Shown here piece after piece: positions 2,208 to 47,065 of a DNA stretch of 47,471 nucleotides. The position numbers and the translations under genes are program-made. The DNA is from a virus, in the IMG/VR virus record IMGVR_UViG_3300025466_001800, positions 1 through 47,471 of that record. One strand, 5' to 3'. The notes beneath the pieces were generated by a model. The model worked only from the letters and a program-made list of their open reading frames with translations, made no database searches and was not told where the DNA came from. How positions within the stretch are numbered: position 1 is the stretch's first letter; the number at the start of each line of letters is the position of its first letter.

Positions 2208-3719
2208 TTAAACGTTACCGAACACCCAGTCCTTAGTAAGTCCTTTATTAAAAATACTATTAGGTATTAAAGGACCTCTTACTGGATCGTTAATTAACAT
2301 TTCCCATGTAGGTATAGGCATTGATGCTACCTTTTCTACAGAACTTGGGTATAGCTTTTTATTGAGTAATTTCTGACCTTCAAATATCATTATCCATTGC
2401 TCCACACCAAAAGGTGGTACTTTCATCTCATTAACTAAAGGATCTAACTCTAAAGGTATCTTTTTATGTCTATTAATTAATTCAGTAATACTGTCAAGTA
2501 TTACATTATTCTTCTTAAAGTCTTTCCAGAATGTAGTGTCTTTTCTCTTTGTAAGGTAGTGTATTTGTATTGCTGGTAAAAAGCGGTTCACTACATCTAT
2601 ATAAAAGTTGTTCAATTCATCTTTGGGCTTCTGATCGTTTATATTAATGAAGATATTTTTAAACGTACTTCTTATACCTACATCCAGTAGCATAAGAGCT
2701 GCCCACAAAGAAGTAGCTTCTAATGGTTCTGCAAACCCAGTCGATAAACCTACAGCAATACAATTCTTTACACATACTTTATCGTATTGACCAGCTTCAA
2801 ATGTAAAGGCACGTGATACATTAATATCATGACCTAATAACTGCTCTACTTCTTCTTTAGCTTTATCAGCTGTTATATGATCTGAATCAAACACATAACC
2901 ACTGCCATAGCGTGATTGTAAAGGTATCTTCCACATCCACCCGTACTTCATAGCTATTGCAGCTGTTGAGTTATTGTAATTATTAGGATCTATTTTATGC
3001 TGGAAAGCAATAGCTTTTTTAGCGGGTAGGTGTTTAGCATAACTTAACCACTTTGTCTTATAGTAATCCCCTATAATCATTCTTTTAAACCCAGTACAAT
3101 CAAATAAGAAACTGGTCTCTACTTGTTGCCCACCTTCAAGTAATATCTTGTTAATATTACCGTTACCATCAGTCTTAAACGAGTTCACTTTACCTTCTAT
3201 TCGCATTACCCCACGGCTAATAGCTACTTCTTTTAAATAATTTGCTAATAATTCTGCATCGAAATGAAATGCATAAGGCATTATCATATCATATTTTTTA
3301 GTTTGAGTGTTAAAAGCAAATGGAGAGTTTTTAAGATTCTTATAAAAAAAGCATCCTTTCTTTATAGGTTGATTACTGTTAACACTCTCAAGCATTCTCT
3401 TGAGTAAATCTAATCTATTAGGATGAGAAAATGAATTTAAATAATCATCATTATCTCCATTCCAATTAATAAATTGTGTACCATATTTAAACGTAGCATT
3501 TGTTCTTTTATAGAACTCATGAAAATCTAAACCTAATACCTTAAACATATGAGAAGGAAAAAATGGAACTGTACCTTCTCCTGCACCAACAATACCTACG
3601 TCGTCACTCTCTATAACTACTATTTTATGGTCTGGTGGACCAATCTGTAGCATAGTTAACGCCGTTAACCATCCAGCGGTACCACCACCAATAACAGTTA
3701 TGTTTTTCTTTACGTCCAT
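2208..3719 (-). CDS. Flavin-dependent tryptophan halogenase family protein
   Basis: A FADH2-dependent halogenase-like enzyme that would chlorinate or brominate an indole or other aromatic substrate. Residues 8-17 hold the FAD-binding GGGTAGW motif, Lys78 (TFKYG) matches the catalytic lysine of PrnA-type enzymes, WMWKIP at 261-266 is the diagnostic WxWxIP motif that keeps the enzyme from acting as a monooxygenase, and Glu334 lies in EPLEATS, the region of the PrnA catalytic glutamate. In PrnA the following chloride-contacting positions are Ser and Gly; here they are Ala335 and Ser337, so substrate or halide handling may differ. The 503-aa length is normal. Related genes are known in T4-like cyanophages. 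It starts with ATG and has no SD. Native substrate unknown. Confidence 0.93.
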   Translation of the reverse strand: MDVKKNITVIGGGTAGWLTALTMLQIGPPDHKIVVIESDDVGIVGAGEGTVPFFPSHMFKVLGLDFHEFYKRTNATFKYGTQFINWNGDNDDYLNSFSHPNRLDLLKRMLESVNSNQPIKKGCFFYKNLKNSPFAFNTQTKKYDMIMPYAFHFDAELLANYLKEVAISRGVMRIEGKVNSFKTDGNGNINKILLEGGQQVETSFLFDCTGFKRMIIGDYYKTKWLSYAKHLPAKKAIAFQHKIDPNNYNNSTAAIAMKYGWMWKIPLQSRYGSGYVFDSDHITADKAKEEVEQLLGHDINVSRAFTFEAGQYDKVCVKNCIAVGLSTGFAEPLEATSLWAALMLLDVGIRSTFKNIFININDQKPKDELNNFYIDVVNRFLPAIQIHYLTKRKDTTFWKDFKKNNVILDSITELINRHKKIPLELDPLVNEMKVPPFGVEQWIMIFEGQKLLNKKLYPSSVEKVASMPIPTWEMLINDPVRGPLIPNSIFNKGLTKDWVFGNV

Positions 3720-5355: not shown

Positions 5356-5892
5356 TCAACTACTAACTATATCATCAATCATATCTTTTATGTAGCTTTG
5401 AGTAAAGCCTCCATCTTTATTGCCCCAAAAAGCTGGCACATTAATATACTTAACAGTACCGTACTTTTTAATAAAAGCAATTTTTTCAAAGTTGTCACGG
5501 GGTGTTAAATCATCGATAAGAACATTTCTACCGGTAGTTATCTTTACATCAGGTGTTTTATACTTCCAATCCTTTACATACGCCTTATCAAAGATCCTAT
5601 CTTCTGTAAACCCGAAGTTAAAGGCACTGTTCATAGCTTGAGCATAGTCTTTATGTGCTCTTGTAAGCATGTAAACGTGGCTTACCTCTCTTAAGAGAAA
5701 TAAAAGATAGTTTGCACCTGGTCTTAATACAGTAACGTAGTGTTCTTTTTTACTTAATGATACTGTTACAGGCTTGTCACAGAACTCAAGATCGCCTTGT
5801 TCTTCCATATCACCTGCAATGGTTTTGAACCCGAGGGTATGTACCAAAGTTTCATCCAAATCAATAAATGTATTAATTATTTCTCTGCTCAT
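5356..5892 (-). CDS. HAD-superfamily phosphatase, FCP1/NLI-interacting-factor-like
   Basis: A compact 178-aa aspartyl phosphatase. Motif I is DLDETLVHT at 11-19, with Asp11 as nucleophile and Asp13 as acid/base. Motif II is the threonine in YMLTRAH (Thr77), and the acidic motif is LIDDLTPRDNF around 125-134. The DxDETLVHT form is the signature of FCP1/SCP-type phosphatases, which in eukaryotes dephosphorylate the RNA polymerase II tail. Phage and bacterial relatives have uncharacterised phosphoprotein or nucleotide substrates. It is the last gene in this leftward series before a rightward homing endonuclease, and an exact TATAAATA stands five bases before its ATG. Confidence 0.85.
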   Translation of the reverse strand: MSREIINTFIDLDETLVHTLGFKTIAGDMEEQGDLEFCDKPVTVSLSKKEHYVTVLRPGANYLLFLLREVSHVYMLTRAHKDYAQAMNSAFNFGFTEDRIFDKAYVKDWKYKTPDVKITTGRNVLIDDLTPRDNFEKIAFIKKYGTVKYINVPAFWGNKDGGFTQSYIKDMIDDIVSS

Positions 5893-5897
5893 TTATT

Positions 5898-5905
5898 TAT
5901 TTATA
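5898..5905 (-). promoter_or_regulatory. TATAAATA box, T4-late-promoter-like
   Basis: An exact TATAAATA on the minus strand followed by AATAA and then the ATG of the HAD gene. It matches the T4 late promoter core. If used at the T4 spacing, the message would begin almost at the start codon, so it may instead be an AT-rich translation-initiation context. Confidence 0.35.
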
Positions 5906-5952
5906 TTATAGTGTTTTATAAAAAAAGCAATGCTGCTATAATAAATATATTT

Positions 5953-6705
5953 ATGGACCTTGACACTAATATTAAACTATTACCTGTAAATGAATGTAGC
6001 AATGCAAAAATGATAATTTATATGCTTTATAATAAGGTTACTAAAAAAGCATATATAGGTAAAACAAAGCACGGATGGGTAATAAGACGTAAAACTTATG
6101 AATATGATATAAAAAACCCTAAAAAACAAAGCTTAATATTAAGATCTTTGCGTAAGCACGGATGGAACAACTTTTTAATTGCGGTGTTAGAAGAAAATGT
6201 ATCTGATCTTAAATTACTGAGTGAAACAGAGAAACAGTATATTAAAAAATATAATACGAATGTTAACGGATACAATATGACGACAGGTGGAGACGGGGGC
6301 TGTAGTGTCACTGCGGCTATAAATAATAGTAAACGTATGAAACAGCAAGTAAAGAATGGAACGTTTATATTGCAAACCCCTGCAATTAAAATAAAGGCTA
6401 ATAAAGCCGCGAGTAAAGCTAATAAGGCTTTATACGCGTCAGGTAAATCTAATTTATTGTGGCCTGAAGTGAAAGCTAAAAGACTCCAATCTTATTTGTT
6501 AAATAATTCTCATCCGCTTGCTATTACTATTAAAAAAATAGATAATACAACTATTAAAAAGCAGTATAAATGTAAAAACGATGCAATCAGAGATGGTATG
6601 ACTCAGATTATACTTGATAAACTTAAAGTGTTAAACTCTTATACGGTACAAAGAAAATCTAAAAATTATAATAAAGGTGATATTATAACTATTAAATATC
6701 TCTAA
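5953..6705 (+). CDS. GIY-YIG homing endonuclease
   Basis: A free-standing mobile endonuclease. The nuclease domain spans about residues 20-105: IYMLYN (GIY-like strand), AYIGKT (YIG strand), the catalytic arginine in the following helix (VIRRKTY), and the glutamate region ETEKQYI, ending in NGYNMTTGGDGG. The lysine- and asparagine-rich C-terminal half probably binds DNA. An upstream in-frame methionine at 5797 exists, but that extension overlaps the HAD gene and does not resemble the family. The ATG at 5953 (250 aa) places the nuclease domain near the N-terminus as usual. It is the only rightward gene between 2.2 and 9.3 kb, which fits a recent insertion. It overlaps the next leftward gene by four bases at their stops. 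Confidence 0.88.
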   Translation: MDLDTNIKLLPVNECSNAKMIIYMLYNKVTKKAYIGKTKHGWVIRRKTYEYDIKNPKKQSLILRSLRKHGWNNFLIAVLEENVSDLKLLSETEKQYIKKYNTNVNGYNMTTGGDGGCSVTAAINNSKRMKQQVKNGTFILQTPAIKIKANKAASKANKALYASGKSNLLWPEVKAKRLQSYLLNNSHPLAITIKKIDNTTIKKQYKCKNDAIRDGMTQIILDKLKVLNSYTVQRKSKNYNKGDIITIKYL

Positions 6706-9349: not shown

Positions 9350-9357
9350 TATAAATA
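9350..9357 (+). promoter_or_regulatory. TATAAATA box upstream of the glycine-zipper gene
   Basis: An exact TATAAATA followed by TTTTA, 19 bases before the ATG at 9377, within the 101-base divergent gap between leftward and rightward genes. Position and sequence match a T4-type late promoter better than any other site in the window, because it leaves room for a short leader. Confidence 0.5.
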
Positions 9358-9376: not shown

Positions 9377-9859
9377 ATGAAAAACAAATTAGTATTAACC
9401 TTAATTGTATTAGCTTTGGCTGTTCCAGCTAAAGCTCAAGAACACACAGCAGAAGGTGTTGCAGCCGGTGCTGTTGTTGGTGGTGTAATTGGTAATCAAT
9501 ACCACCATAACGTTGTTGGTGGCGCCGTTGCTGGTGCTTTAATTGGAGGAATGATTGGTAGCGCAGCTGATCATGCTAATGATCAACCCAGAGTGATCGT
9601 TGTACAAGCTCCACCCCCACCAGCACCTGCTCCAGTAGTAGTTCAAGCTCCACCCCCACCACCAATACCTGTTACAATACAATATGTTTGGGGTCCATTA
9701 GATCGGTGGGGTCACCCACAATATGTATATGTTCAAGAATGGAATGGTGTACAGTGGGTAACAACCTATTATGATTATAGAGTGTTTTTAGGTTGGTATC
9801 AACACCGTTACGGCTATGCATTCCGTGAAGATATGTACCGCCATCATTGGCACCGTTAA
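9377..9859 (+). CDS. Exported glycine-zipper protein (160 aa)
   Basis: Residues 1-20 form a clear Sec signal peptide ending in AKAQ. Residues 25-65 form a glycine-zipper double hairpin (GVAAGAVVGGVIGN and VVGGAVAGALIGGMIG), as in outer-membrane-associated 17-kDa-antigen-like lipoproteins, but without a lipobox cysteine. A proline-rich linker (PPPPAPAP) and a Trp/Tyr-rich C-terminal domain (WGPLDRWGHPQYVYV) follow. It is likely targeted to the periplasm or outer membrane of the infected cell and could alter permeability, aid lysis or block superinfection. The domain is bacterial in style, so host origin is plausible. It converges on the next gene with a four-base gap. Confidence 0.82.
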   Translation: MKNKLVLTLIVLALAVPAKAQEHTAEGVAAGAVVGGVIGNQYHHNVVGGAVAGALIGGMIGSAADHANDQPRVIVVQAPPPPAPAPVVVQAPPPPPIPVTIQYVWGPLDRWGHPQYVYVQEWNGVQWVTTYYDYRVFLGWYQHRYGYAFREDMYRHHWHR

Positions 9860-13170: not shown

Positions 13171-13178
13171 TATTTATA
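13171..13178 (-). promoter_or_regulatory. TATAAATA box before the metallopeptidase gene
   Basis: An exact minus-strand TATAAATA, followed by TATAA and the GTG start. It lies between the terminator-like hairpin at 13202-13267 and the gene, a natural place to restart transcription. Confidence 0.4.
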
Positions 13179-15476: not shown

Positions 15477-15722
15477 TTATGTAATAATGCGATGATATAA
15501 GTCAAGAACCGCTGGGGTGTCTAATTCTTGAAAGAATTCTTTAATATATTTCCTTACATCGTTTTCAGACATAGGAATGTTATTAATATAGTATTCTTCC
15601 TTATTATCGTGATTAAACGGAATACCAAAGTATTTGTTTAATAATTCGTTGCCAATTTTTTCAATATTTTGGCTACGAACATATTCGTTAATGTATTCTC
15701 GCATTGAAGCGACTGTTTGCAT
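15477..15722 (-). CDS. Hypothetical helical protein (81 aa)
   Basis: Not recognised. It is acidic and almost wholly helical (MREYINEYVRSQNIEKIGNE ; VRKYIKEFFQELDTP), without cysteines or membrane segments. It is likely a small regulatory or adaptor protein. It is divergent from the short rightward transcript beginning near 15.8 kb, and its stop is one base from the start of the next gene. Confidence 0.65.
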   Translation of the reverse strand: MQTVASMREYINEYVRSQNIEKIGNELLNKYFGIPFNHDNKEEYYINNIPMSENDVRKYIKEFFQELDTPAVLDLYHRIIT

Positions 15723-15809
15723 ATTATCTTGTTTTTATTGTTTGTTTAAGTTAACAAATACAATAATAGCACAAATGCCTAATATGTCAAGAAAAAAATA
15801 AATGCCTTT

Positions 15810-15926
15810 ATGGTAAACTCTACAGCCCTGTATTTTACTATAGATACACCGCGAAGGTATACGCTAACGCGTGGGTACGTTAACAACGCGCAGGGTTCAG
15901 GCTCACTTGAAGAAGAGTCTTTGTAA
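15810..15926 (+). CDS. Possible 38-aa small protein, or part of a structured non-coding RNA
   Basis: An ATG-TAA frame beginning MVNSTALYFTIDTPRRYTL and ending SGSLEEESL. It lies in a 289-base gap otherwise free of genes. It is preceded by A-rich sequence and followed by two hairpins and a strong rightward terminator, so this strand is probably transcribed. The bases around 15850-15892 are markedly GC-richer than the surroundings and contain self-complementary CGCG and TAACG segments, which favours a structured RNA as much as a protein. The coding call is weak. Confidence 0.35.
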   Translation: MVNSTALYFTIDTPRRYTLTRGYVNNAQGSGSLEEESL

Positions 15927-15949
15927 TGTAAGCGATTAAACTTACAAAG
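15919..15949 (+). ncRNA. Mutually exclusive hairpins in the short rightward transcript
   Basis: CTTTGTAA (15919-15926) pairs perfectly with TTACAAAG (15942-15949), 8 bp. TGTAAG (15927-15932) pairs perfectly with CTTACA (15941-15946), 6 bp. Both use the same 3' arm, so they cannot form together. This is the arrangement of an attenuator or RNA switch. The stop codon of the 38-aa frame lies in the first arm. Confidence 0.4.
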
Positions 15950-15972
15950 TGTTAAAAGAACGAAAGGTATTA

Positions 15973-16009
15973 TAGTACCTGATTAGGTTAAAATCAAGTA
16001 CTATTTTTT
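15973..16009 (+). terminator. Rho-independent terminator, rightward
   Basis: A 12-position stem (15973-15984 with 15992-16003, one C-A mismatch) closes a 7-base loop and is followed by TTTTTT (16004-16009). There is no T run on the other strand, so it ends a rightward transcript. It separates the small transcript from the convergent 45-aa gene. Confidence 0.75.
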
Positions 16010-16011
16010 AA

Positions 16012-16149
16012 TTATTGCTGAGGCTGATTTGAATCAGTAGCTGCTGGTGTTGCAGGAGCTGCTGATGAAGCGGATTTCTTAGCGAAGAATTTCTTATAAG
16101 CTACGAAGCCTGCTGCTGCAAGAACAAGAATAATGATTGTTGTTTTCAT
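16012..16149 (-). CDS. Small single-span membrane protein (45 aa)
   Basis: The frame runs from ATG at 16149 to TAA at 16012. Residues 3-18 are a hydrophobic helix (TTIIILVLAAAGFVAYKK), followed by lysines that would lie in the cytoplasm (KKFFAKK) and an Ala/Pro/Ser/Gln tail. TAAATA lies seven bases before the ATG, as for other genes here. It follows the endonuclease-V-like gene by six bases. It may be a small membrane effector; no family recognised. Confidence 0.7.
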   Translation of the reverse strand: MKTTIIILVLAAAGFVAYKKFFAKKSASSAAPATPAATDSNQPQQ

Positions 16150-16155
16150 ACGTTA

Positions 16156-16608
16156 TTATTTACTGGTTAAAACTTGAAATGTATCGGGATTACTCGAGGG
16201 CCAGATATACTGTAAGTCTTCTGGTGTATCCGGAAATTGTTGTTTATAATAGTCTGGATATTTCTGTATTAGCATTGATTGATGTGTTAAGTGTACATCT
16301 AACATACCTAACCACCAAGGATACGTTGTAGGTTTGGATATATCGTAGTATGCACCTATTTTCTCATAACATGTATCCTTATAACCACGTTCTTTCCATA
16401 CTTCACAAACAGTCATACCATACTCAGCTAAAGCGTTCTCATGTCCACGCCACATTTCCCGGCAAGGGTGGTTCTTCCAACCTTTATAATCAGGTTTATG
16501 AAACGAGTTAAGAAGTTGTAATACTTCAACACGCTGCTTACCGAGTCTTTTCATATCAAGACTTTTAGCAGATTCTCGAAAGTTAGCGAATGGTAGAAAT
16601 GTTTGCAC
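16156..16608 (-). CDS. Pyrimidine-dimer glycosylase/endonuclease-V-like protein (150 aa)
   Basis: It opens MQTFLPFANFRESAKSLD and continues with KRLGKQRVEVLQLL and HPCREMWRGHENALAEYG, the pattern of an actinobacterial and phage family related to T4 endonuclease V (Pyr_excise), which removes UV dimers from DNA. The invariant-looking R-L-G-K-Q-R and N-H-P segments are intact, and the 150-aa length is full size. It starts with GTG and is divergent from the glycosyltransferase at 16630 with 21 bases between them. Repair activity is inferred from family similarity, not from identified catalytic residues. Confidence 0.7.
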   Translation of the reverse strand: MQTFLPFANFRESAKSLDMKRLGKQRVEVLQLLNSFHKPDYKGWKNHPCREMWRGHENALAEYGMTVCEVWKERGYKDTCYEKIGAYYDISKPTTYPWWLGMLDVHLTHQSMLIQKYPDYYKQQFPDTPEDLQYIWPSSNPDTFQVLTSK

Positions 16609-30869: not shown

Positions 30870-31643
30870 TTAACAGCCGCATGTTCCCGGTACATATGTT
30901 ACACTGTTTGTTGTGTACCAACCATCATAACTCGTAGTTGATGAACCGTGCCAATCAGATGCATAGGCAGCAAAGTTAACATTAGCGTTTGCATACAGTC
31001 CGCATAGTTGGCCACAGTATGTTGTATCACTATACGAAGCATATGGACCCCAGTTCTTATTAAAGAAGCTGTTATACGTACCAGCTGTTCCATAGTAGCT
31101 ATAATACATCTGTTCATCAGCTAAACCAGAAGAACCTGTCCATCCACCGGAACCCGTGTAAGCAGTTGAACTGATTTGTACACCGAAGAACGCATACCCG
31201 TTCGGATAACCGTTATACACATAACTAATACTTGTTGAAGGAGCTGCTGGCGGTACTGGTACTGGTGTTGCTGTTGGAGTAGGTGTAGGGGTACGGGTTG
31301 GTGTTGGAGTTGGTGGTACTGGAGTTAAAGTAGGTGTAGGTGTAGGAGTAGGAGGAGGTGGCGGTGGTGGTGGTGTTATTGTCGGAGTAGGAGTAGGAGT
31401 AGGCGGTACTGGTGTTAACGTAGGTGTAACAGTTGGTGTTGGTGTAATTGTTGGAGTAGGAGTTGGAGTAGGTGGTACTGGTGTTAACGTAGGTGTAACA
31501 GTTGGTGTTGGTGTAATCGTTGGTGTCGGAGTAGGAGTTGGTGGTACTGGTGTTGGAGTGGGAGTGAGCGTAGGTGTAACTGTTGGAGTAGGCGTCGGTG
31601 TTGGCGACGGACTAAACATGAAAAACGGCTGTATTACGCTCAT
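30870..31643 (-). CDS. Pro-Thr stalk protein with small C-terminal head (257 aa)
   Basis: Residues 10-135 are almost wholly Pro/Thr ([15 protein letters not shown]), with a 23-residue unit repeated. The last 120 residues form a Tyr/Ser/Gly-rich head ([14 protein letters not shown]) with cysteines only near the end ([14 protein letters not shown]). The architecture is an extended stalk with a tip domain, like a short fiber or spike. It lies between the collagen-like fiber and the 499-aa structural protein in the leftward tail block. Confidence 0.8.
31315..31560. repeat. 69-bp Pro-Thr coding repeat
   Basis: A unit encoding [20 protein letters not shown] and flanking residues (23 aa) occurs twice in close copy and in weaker form on both sides. 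The bases are GGTGTTGGAGTAGG-like runs on the plus strand. Confidence 0.7.
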
Positions 31644-31650
31644 TTTTTTA

Positions 31651-33834
31651 TTAAGTTACACCTGGTCCAGATATCACAAATGTATTACCACCTACACATA
31701 GCACTGTACATATACCGTATTGTGCTAATGTACGATTACCTGTACTTGAAGTACCTGCCCATCTTAAGGTAACAGATGTGCCTTGAGTAATAGTTTGATT
31801 ACTACCACTATTATTATATATAGTAATTACATTACCATCAGAGAATATACTTGCTGGTATAGTAACACCACCTGTAGTAATATTAATATATTTACCGTTA
31901 TCGGTAAGCTGTAGTGTGTAGCTTGTTGATTGACTGTTAGAAGGTATTGAGTTTGTACCGCTATAACCTGAAATACCAGAGCCGCTATAACCGCTTATAC
32001 CACTCCACCCACTAATACCGCTATAACCACTAATACCAGAATAACCAGAGTAACCGCTGATACCAGACCAACCAGAGATACCTGAGTAACCACTGATGCC
32101 GGAGTAACCGCTATAACCCGAAATACCGGAATAACCGCTTATACCACTATAACCTGAAATGCCGGAATAGCCACTATAACCAGAGATACCTGAGTAACCA
32201 CTTATACCAGAAAAACCAGATATACCGCTATAACCACTGTTACCAGAGTAACCTGAATAACCAGAAATGCCTGAATAGCCACTGATGCCGCTAAAGCCGC
32301 TGTTACCACTGAAGCCAGAATAGCCTGATATACCTGAAACACCTTGCCCTATAGGTGTACGTAATACCGTAAATACTGAACTACCATTATATTGATAAGC
32401 AGCTGTAACAGGAGAAACACTTGAAGTATATGCTGAAACTTGTAATAAAATACGATCTGTAGCAGATAGAGTTGTAATGTTACTTGTAACTGTAGCTAAT
32501 TTTTGATAAGTTGAAGTTGTATCTGAAACCGTACCAGAATCAGCACTTAATATAAACGTTCCAGTGCTACTGGTGGTCATTGAATACGTATATACACTGA
32601 ATACAAAATTAGCTGTACCACCTGTTACGTAACGATAAAATTCGACATCCCAAAGACCTGGGGGTATTTCTGTTAAACCAGGCTCTCCAATTGGTGTTAA
32701 ATACCAGCCGAAAGCTGTTAACCCCGTACTTGAAGTAATTGCTATATAATCGTCGTTAACTGTTGTTCCACCGCCACCTGGCTGTAAAGCCATTACTTCA
32801 TATGTGGAAGAGTTTTGATCGCTTGCTATTTCTTCTAAAAAGTATGTACGTCCGTATATTGAACCACCTGTTGTACCAGACCAACCTGAAATACCAGAAT
32901 AGCCTGATATACCACTATAACCTGAATACCCTGAAATACCTGAAGCTGCATAAGCACCTGGTATACCACTAAAGCCTGATATACCTGAGTAACCAGATGT
33001 ACCAGAATAACCAGAATAACCGCTTATACCACTATAACCTGAAATACCGCTATAACCACTAATACCAGAATAACCTGAAGTACCTGAAAAACCAGAATAA
33101 CCACTTATACCAGAATAACCAGAATGGCTACTATAGCCTGAATAACCTGAAATACCAGAGTACCCTGAAATACCAGAATAACCACTATAACCTGATGTAC
33201 CGGAATAACCAGAAATACCGGAATAACCTGAAATACCAGAGTAGCCGCTTGTTCCACTAAAACCACTAAAACCAGAGATACCAGAATAACCACTTATACC
33301 GGAGTAACCGGAAGTACTGTTACCGGAGTAACCGGAAGTACCTGAGTAACCGGAATAACCAGAGGTACCGGAATAGCCACTTATACCAGAATAGCCGGAA
33401 TAACCGCTAATGCCAGAATAACCTGAAATACCGCTAAAACCTGATATACCACTAAAACCAGAGATACCAGAATAACCAGAAGTACCGGTACCACTAAAAC
33501 CAGAGTAACCAGATACTCCGGAACCTGAATAACCAGACTTACCAGAGATACCCGAGTAACCAGAGATACCAGAAAAACCACTATAACCTGAACTTGCAGC
33601 CGCACCAGGTATACCACTATATCCCGAAGGACCGGTTGGACCAGAATAACCAGATTTACCAGAAGTACCAGACCAACCAGATATACCACTATAACCACTA
33701 TACCCACCTATACCTGCTGTACCAGAAAAACCAGAATAACCAGATGTATTGCCACTATAACCGCTCACGCCTGAATAACCGCTTGTGGTAGCGGTGTACA
33801 GCATGTTTGAATTAATTTTTATTAAAGAAGACAT
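31651..33834 (-). CDS. Collagen-like fiber protein (727 aa)
   Basis: Two long blocks of Gly-X-Ser triplets ([15 protein letters not shown]...) cover about residues 18-325 and 498-625. They should form a collagen-like triple helix in which most Y positions are serine. Between them is a globular beta domain (about 330-495, [20 protein letters not shown]) and at the end a 100-residue beta domain ([21 protein letters not shown]) of the type that trimerises phage fibers or binds receptors. It probably forms a trimeric tail fiber. It follows the 332-aa wedge-like gene by three bases. Confidence 0.88.
31960..32345. repeat. Collagen-like Gly-X-Ser coding repeat, block 2
   Basis: The second triplet array of the same gene, separated from block 1 by about 520 bases that code for a globular domain. 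Confidence 0.85.
32870..33785. repeat. Collagen-like Gly-X-Ser coding repeat, block 1
   Basis: A 9- and 18-base periodic array of CCAGAATAACC/CCACTTATACC-like units (minus strand: Gly-Tyr-Ser-Gly-Ile-Ser). Synonymous variation between units shows that the amino-acid pattern, not the DNA, is conserved. Confidence 0.85.
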
Positions 33835-46342: not shown

Positions 46343-47065
46343 TTAATTTTCAAGAAATAGCTTCGCTTCTTTTCGTTTTTGCCAAGCTAATCTCAACTTT
46401 TCTCTTGTTGCTTCATTATGTTTTTTGCCAAACATACCGTTATTAGCTCCCTTGCTTTTTTCTCTATGCTTCTGTCTTGTTTCTTCACTTATAGGGTTCA
46501 ATTTATGCACTTCTTTCATTTTTTCAGAGTGCTTTCTTCTATTCTCTTCATTCCACCAAGTGGCGTTATGTTGCTTTATGCGTTCAATCTGTTCCGCTGT
46601 ATGCCAGGACGTGTATCGGCTTTTACGCGTTGCAACCATTTTATTGTAAACATCTTTACTTCTTGTTCTCTTTTCCTGATTTTGCTTTTCAACAGTTTCT
46701 TGCGATTTCGGCTTTCTCATTTTTAGCTTTGTATGTTCAGACAGCTTATACCCTCCCTTATTAACAAAGTTCTTTCCTCCATTATGTCTGTTATAAAACA
46801 TTGGATGCTCAGCCGCATTTACTTTTGTCAAGAATTTCATTTCGTATGTCAAAGCTTCTTCTGGTGTTGTAAAGTGTTTTATTCTAATTATTTCAAATGC
46901 ACTCAGTCCATCTTTTTGAATTAATCTCTTAATAATATCAGATGTTGTCTGGTATCCCTTTTCAGTCATAAAATTAAAAGAATTAGCTTTTGAGTTTATC
47001 TTACATCCTGCATAATACTTTTGTGTGGGTATATGTCTTATTATATAAAAATATGGTTTTCTCAT
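46343..47065 (-). CDS. GIY-YIG homing endonuclease between nrdB and nrdA (240 aa)
   Basis: A mobile endonuclease. The N-terminal domain begins MRKPYFYIIRHIPTQKYYAGC (GIY and YIG strands as YFYII and YYAGC), with the glutamate helix EEALTYEMKFL and a closing FYNRHNGGKN. The C-terminal half carries NUMOD3-type DNA-binding repeats (SEHTKLKMRKP; SEETRQKHREKSKGANNGMFG; NEATREKLRLAW). It lies between the two ribonucleotide reductase genes in the same direction, the typical site for free-standing endonucleases that target conserved replication genes. Forty bases separate it from each neighbour. Confidence 0.88.
   Translation of the reverse strand: MRKPYFYIIRHIPTQKYYAGCKINSKANSFNFMTEKGYQTTSDIIKRLIQKDGLSAFEIIRIKHFTTPEEALTYEMKFLTKVNAAEHPMFYNRHNGGKNFVNKGGYKLSEHTKLKMRKPKSQETVEKQNQEKRTRSKDVYNKMVATRKSRYTSWHTAEQIERIKQHNATWWNEENRRKHSEKMKEVHKLNPISEETRQKHREKSKGANNGMFGKKHNEATREKLRLAWQKRKEAKLFLEN

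Follow-up and report, generated by a model that had tools for sequence, protein, structure and literature searches.

A conserved phage locus with a candidate leftward non-coding RNA and a predicted pseudoknotted core

A short intergenic block beside a denV-like gene in a T4-type phage is conserved far beyond chance and carries a predicted structured RNA on its minus strand. The block probably constitutes an autonomous leftward phage gene, from which the host sigma70 polymerase would transcribe a pseudoknotted non-coding RNA of ~170 nt that may act in trans through its fold. The conserved block, its strand, its covarying helices, its promoter, the lack of coding capacity and the independence from the downstream gene are all computed results. 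The DNA is viral sequence from a lake metagenome (IMG/VR record IMGVR_UViG_3300025466_001800), whose 47,471 bases are here called the window, and the window contains T4-type baseplate genes.

The conserved block and its neighbours

The initial annotation described a GC-rich, self-complementary stretch in a gap between leftward genes, and both the gap and the stretch exist. Genes flanking the RNA are as follows, in window coordinates:

16156-16608, minus strand: denV-like pyrimidine dimer DNA glycosylase (Pyr_excise; Pfam PF03013, E 6e-21)
16012-16149, minus strand: small 45-aa ORF (MKTTIII...) that separates denV from the RNA and that only some relatives have
15763-15790, minus strand: separate promoter of the next leftward gene, TTGACA-N16-TATTAT, just past the U-run of the RNA
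15477-15722, minus strand: next leftward ORF, 81 aa, downstream of the RNA

Glycosylase homologues were gathered from 59 viral loci for comparison with the window. In this comparison the block at ~15790-16016 is conserved as a unit, with ~73-85% identity across the aligned stretches (members L002-L008, L010 and L012), even in relatives that have unrelated DNA on its left side. With pattern scans added, the block was found in 15 public contigs besides the window. The denV-like gene is the constant neighbour, lying upstream of the RNA in 9/9 aligned members, and the 45-aa ORF is present in the window, L003, L005, L006 and L012 and absent in L002, L004, L010 and L014. On the left, four lineages have the 81-aa ORF as their downstream gene, another four have a 172-aa ORF, and in one a 73-aa ORF follows at once. 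Since the downstream gene varies while the block stays, the block is a unit of its own, which argues against a cis-acting switch serving one gene.

A covariance model of the proposed RNA matches a single copy in the window (142 bits, E 3e-27). It also picks up L014 (E 2.4e-9), places no copy in L015, L018 or the distant L173, and fails to detect L174, whose RNA was identified from its two ends. At blastn sensitivity, 50,697 phage records contained no similar DNA save short weak matches to L174.

Promoter and strand

The elements at the right-hand end of the block are:

15992-15997, minus strand: -35 box TTGATT (TTGATC in seven relatives, TTGATA in L014, TTGATT in L174)
15969-15974, minus strand: -10 box TATAAT (TATAAT in seven relatives, TATTAT in L014, TACTAT in L174)
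15972-16004, minus strand: inverted repeat with 13-bp arms (16004-15992 and 15984-15972) that overlaps the promoter

Positions 15997-15969 are predicted to form the leftward sigma70-type promoter of the RNA. Seven of nine aligned members carry exactly TTGATC-N16-TATAAT, and the spacer is 17 in the window and 16 elsewhere. Hexamers and spacing can be recognised in every member, even in L014 and L174, whose flanking sequence differs. The window holds two strong matches to TTGA[CT]N-TATAAT, this promoter and one at 9802. Because the promoter is of the host sigma70 type, the RNA would probably be made early in infection. T4-type late boxes (TATAAATA) lie 5-19 bases before ORF starts at 9350 and 13416 on the plus strand and at 13178 and 5905 on the minus strand, which suggests T4-like late transcription in this phage.

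A strong rightward terminator had been proposed at 15973-16009. A hairpin beside a T-run does exist there (15972-16004), but it is the dyad of the leftward promoter. A terminator scan lists the 15973-16009 hairpin on neither strand, and the plus-strand T-run is lost in relatives (ACTATGTTTAA, ACTATTATTTAC, ACTAATACTTAC). The repeat also pairs better as minus-strand RNA, forming G-U where the plus strand would have C-A (15 G-U cells on minus versus 4 C-A). The dyad may serve as an operator or as the end of the upstream message. More generally, a structured region read on a single strand can be assigned to the wrong strand, as a promoter dyad here mimicked a terminator of the opposite one.

Judged by its pairing, the conserved RNA would be read leftward, from the minus strand. 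For eight members, with block and promoter taken together, the RNAalifold consensus fold reaches -35.7 kcal/mol on the minus strand versus -17.1 kcal/mol on the plus strand. When the columns of the RNA core were shuffled, the minus fold stood at z -3.48 (1/150 as good) and the plus fold at z -1.05 (23/150). The window's copy of the block, folded alone, gave z -3.33 on minus (0/200 shuffles) and z -1.75 on plus (13/200). Wobble cells in the helices number 59 G-U on minus versus 4 A-C that would be G-U on plus, a count biased toward minus because the helices were chosen on that strand; the RNAalifold comparison is free of this bias. The rightward transcript of the initial annotation is thus not borne out, as conserved structure and promoter both lie on the minus strand.

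Limits and predicted fold of the RNA

The ends of the RNA are taken from the promoter and the U-run. Its proposed elements are:

~15962 (CGUUCUUU) to ~15792, minus strand: proposed non-coding RNA, ~170 nt
15919-15949, minus strand: H1 stem-loop, CUUUG-UAAG ... CUUA-C-AUUA-CAAAG, with two compensatory pairs
15916-15919 with 15816-15819, minus strand: P1b, GACU/AGUU, with C-G to U-A covariation
15899-15902 with 15804-15807, minus strand: P1, GCCU/AGGC, crossing P1b
15891-15895 with 15826-15830, minus strand: P2, CCCUG/CAGGG, with no broken cell in 10 members
15888-15890 with 15850-15852, minus strand: P3, CGC/GCG, invariant in all members
15863-15884, minus strand: inserted hairpin GUUAACGU/GCGUUAGC, with a C-G/U-A change between members
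15838-15843 with 15820-15825, minus strand: P4, CUAUAG/CUGUAG, pseudoknotted with P2
15792-15802, minus strand: 3' U-run following AUAAAGGCA; most members are T-rich here

The core is predicted to be pseudoknotted through P2 and P4. P2 has four pair types at one position and two at the next; other members have CCCCG/CGGGG, CCCUA/UGGGG or CCCAA/UUGGG, in the pattern CCYYG/CRRGG. P1 covaries in the pattern RCCU/AGGY, as ACCU/AGGU in L014 and AGCU/AGCU in L174. As P1 and P1b cross, they would form either a second pseudoknot or alternative pairings. P3 is invariant and thus uninformative taken alone. P4, the weakest helix of the model, is invariant in eight members and cut to CUA/UAG in L014 and L174. 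The inserted hairpin is found only in the window, L003 and L006. No strong GC-rich hairpin precedes the U-run, so the 3' end may come from processing. A further stem, P0 (UCUUUA/UAAAGG), was rejected as a closing stem, because some of its cells are broken in L003 and the window and because P1 uses the same 3' strand.

Standard pairs fill 99.3% of pair cells, a value that falls to 34-53% once one strand is slid by 1-3 columns. Two-sided changes occur at 4/39 pairs in the main alignment, a count that 48/500 shuffles also reach. Because 8/10 compared members are close relatives, the covariation reflects few evolutionary events and few covarying pairs.

The two mutually exclusive hairpins of the initial annotation share an arm at 15919-15949, and a hairpin does exist at these positions. 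What had been read as exclusive alternatives, however, are the lower and upper halves of a single minus-strand stem (CUUUG-UAAG/CUUA-CAAAG), namely H1. For the block as a whole, pairing is conserved among relatives on the minus strand, contrary to the refuting outcome named in the initial annotation.

Divergent members

Since members of the main alignment are mostly close kin, independent support for the fold comes from L014 and L174, both of which keep P1 and P2 through compensatory change. L174 (contig 3300005805_007239) has the same promoter and start (GUUCUUUU) as other members, with 75% identity to L014 across 72 nt of promoter and 5' start. Its 3' end is that of the family: GCUGAACCC ... 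UUGGGCUGUAGA ... UUCAUUUUAUGG. The L174 RNA, at 1926-2323, is a 364-nt, GC-richer non-coding version with >200 nt extra in the 5' domain. In it P1, P2 and, by position, a P1b equivalent (GUUCC/GGAAU) pair with new sequences; folded alone, this version does no better than shuffles (z 0.45). H1 behaves as a variable peripheral domain, being replaced in L014 and expanded in L174. The family therefore seems, from these few members, to combine a constant core with a changeable outer domain. ARAGORN reports a tRNA-Leu on L174 that is separate from the RNA and outside it.

Coding capacity and searches for known RNAs

Comparison of the relatives revealed no conserved coding frame on either strand of the block. 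The 38-aa plus-strand frame pointed out earlier (MVNSTALYF...EEESL) does exist in the window, but it is shifted or absent in relatives. With the peptide frame not conserved and the downstream gene varying between 81-, 172- and 73-aa ORFs, the suggestion of an attenuator or leader-peptide switch fails. A riboswitch was rejected on similar grounds, as downstream genes vary and the next leftward gene of the window has its own promoter just past the U-run.

At the gathering threshold, Rfam 15 has no match to the window, L005, L014 or L174, and permissive thresholds (E up to 10 for the window and 5 for relatives) returned chance-level matches only. ARAGORN found no tRNA or tmRNA in the window. Antisense targets of the RNA within the 47-kb window showed complementarity no better than that of shuffled RNAs, which makes action as a folded RNA more likely.

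P1b and P1 cross and enclose a domain, an arrangement reminiscent of how P1 and P2 are nested in HDV ribozymes. Unlike HDV-like ribozymes, the present RNA lacks a P4 and P1.1 arrangement, and its joining strand reads CAUA instead of CNRA. The permissive Rfam search gave no such hit, and membership in that class is not claimed.

A 19-base family motif (CTGTAGARTTTCATAAAGG; 15804-15825, minus strand) has 72 matches in bacterial genomes, nearly all on the sense strand of one conserved Bacteroidota coding gene (...TVEFHKGK...), which we take to be purine nucleoside phosphorylase. A conserved gene of Flavobacteria contains the very same bases as a series of codons (TVEFHKG). Kinship was rejected, as the similarity extends no further and the window copy is interrupted; the match is probably a coincidence. 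Viral matches to the motif in L078-L084 are unrelated sequence.

Proposed mechanism and alternative explanations

The favoured explanation, held with reasonable confidence, is the autonomous leftward gene. Host sigma70 polymerase would transcribe leftward from TTGATT-N17-TATAAT at 15997-15969, probably early. The RNA would start near 15962, end within the U-run near 15795, and fold into a compact pseudoknotted core of P1, P1b, P2, P3 and P4 with replaceable outer hairpins. It would then act in trans, most likely by binding a protein of the host or the phage, or keeping it occupied, in preference to simple antisense pairing; this last step, with a protein as the probable partner, is an educated guess. 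An extension of this proposal, which we regard as quite unlikely, is that the RNA founds a class of its own among phage RNAs for host takeover, with a double-pseudoknot core and an outer domain that can grow from a single hairpin (~150 nt) to >200 nt. Such an RNA would be made by host sigma70 polymerase right after infection and would either target a protein machine of the host or work as a catalyst, a mode of action not described for other phage RNAs.

The chief competitor, itself unlikely, is that the block belongs to the 3' UTR of the leftward mRNA for denV (and the small ORF), as a terminal hairpin and pseudoknot protecting that message or processed from it, and that the promoter boxes are incidental. 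The block is always downstream of denV on the same strand, the dyad lies just past a stop codon, and its wobble pairs favour pairing in minus-strand RNA. Yet the consensus -35 and -10 boxes keep their fixed spacing even in L014, where the -35 overlaps the denV stop codon, and the L174 promoter is kept though the RNA lies elsewhere (denV at 3001-3411 and RNA at ~5500 of L011). In L011 an unrelated long gene separates denV from the RNA, with a terminator-like hairpin just before the RNA, and elsewhere the 45-aa ORF between them comes and goes.

The single copy, the promoter with its dyad and the absence of coding capacity would also suit a functional DNA element, either an operator or an R-loop type replication origin composed of a promoter and transcribed non-coding DNA. 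This seems very unlikely, because an origin would not be expected to show compensating two-sided changes that maintain RNA pairing between segments far apart, and the cumulative GC skew minimum in the 14-16 kb bin is weak within a shallow, noisy profile. Least credible of all is a transcript read rightward through a leader peptide and attenuator hairpins to a terminator. The plus strand of the window does have a hairpin followed by T6, as well as the 38-aa frame. Neither the frame nor the T-run is conserved, however, and the plus fold does not outdo column shuffles (z -1.05). Nor is there anything to attenuate, since the adjacent genes on the right are themselves leftward.

Relation to known phage RNAs

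As a category, the small regulatory RNA of the initial annotation agrees with a conserved, structured non-coding unit bearing a promoter and a U-run, though not with its rightward direction. Phage-encoded sRNAs are well known as a kind, including PreS, sar, c4, VpdS and others (PMC12197685). The autonomous leftward RNA would resemble the trans-acting ones, which are intergenic, separately transcribed genes, and its predicted size is near that of the larger examples (PMC12197685). Most of those, however, come from temperate phages or prophages and act by short antisense pairing (PMC12197685), whereas the present phage is T4-type and its RNA is dominated by a conserved pseudoknotted fold, with no antisense target in the window. 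RNAC and RNAD of T4 are likewise small RNAs in a T4-type phage, of unknown role (PMC3014915); by location they differ, as they lie in the T4 tRNA region and the window has no tRNA gene. GOLLD and ROOL are also structured non-coding RNAs from phage or lake DNA (PMC12286853), and the L174 version reaches 364 nt, but the present RNA has no Rfam match and its core is far smaller. It would thus be a new RNA family, judged by Rfam 15, within the known kind of phage-encoded non-coding RNA.

A 2010 review of post-transcriptional control in T4 noted that no small trans-acting T4 RNA had been functionally characterised and suggested looking to T4-related genomes (PMC3014915). The present RNA is a candidate of this T4-related sort, and it is directly testable because its strand, promoter, limits and fold have been defined, along with its relatives.

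Other features of the window

A tryptophan halogenase-like gene lies on the phage contig at 2208-3719 on the minus strand (PF04820, E 3e-98). Next to it, at 150-2207 on the plus strand, is a gene for a CHASE2 and adenylate/guanylate cyclase protein (PF05226, PF00211), which could also mark a non-phage contig end. Likely homing-endonuclease genes, with a weak GIY-YIG match and a NUMOD3 motif, occur at 5797-6705 (plus strand) and 46343-47065 (minus strand). The tail-gene region encodes highly repetitive proteins with GYSG-type and PTPT-type repeats at 31651-33834 and 30870-31643, both on the minus strand.
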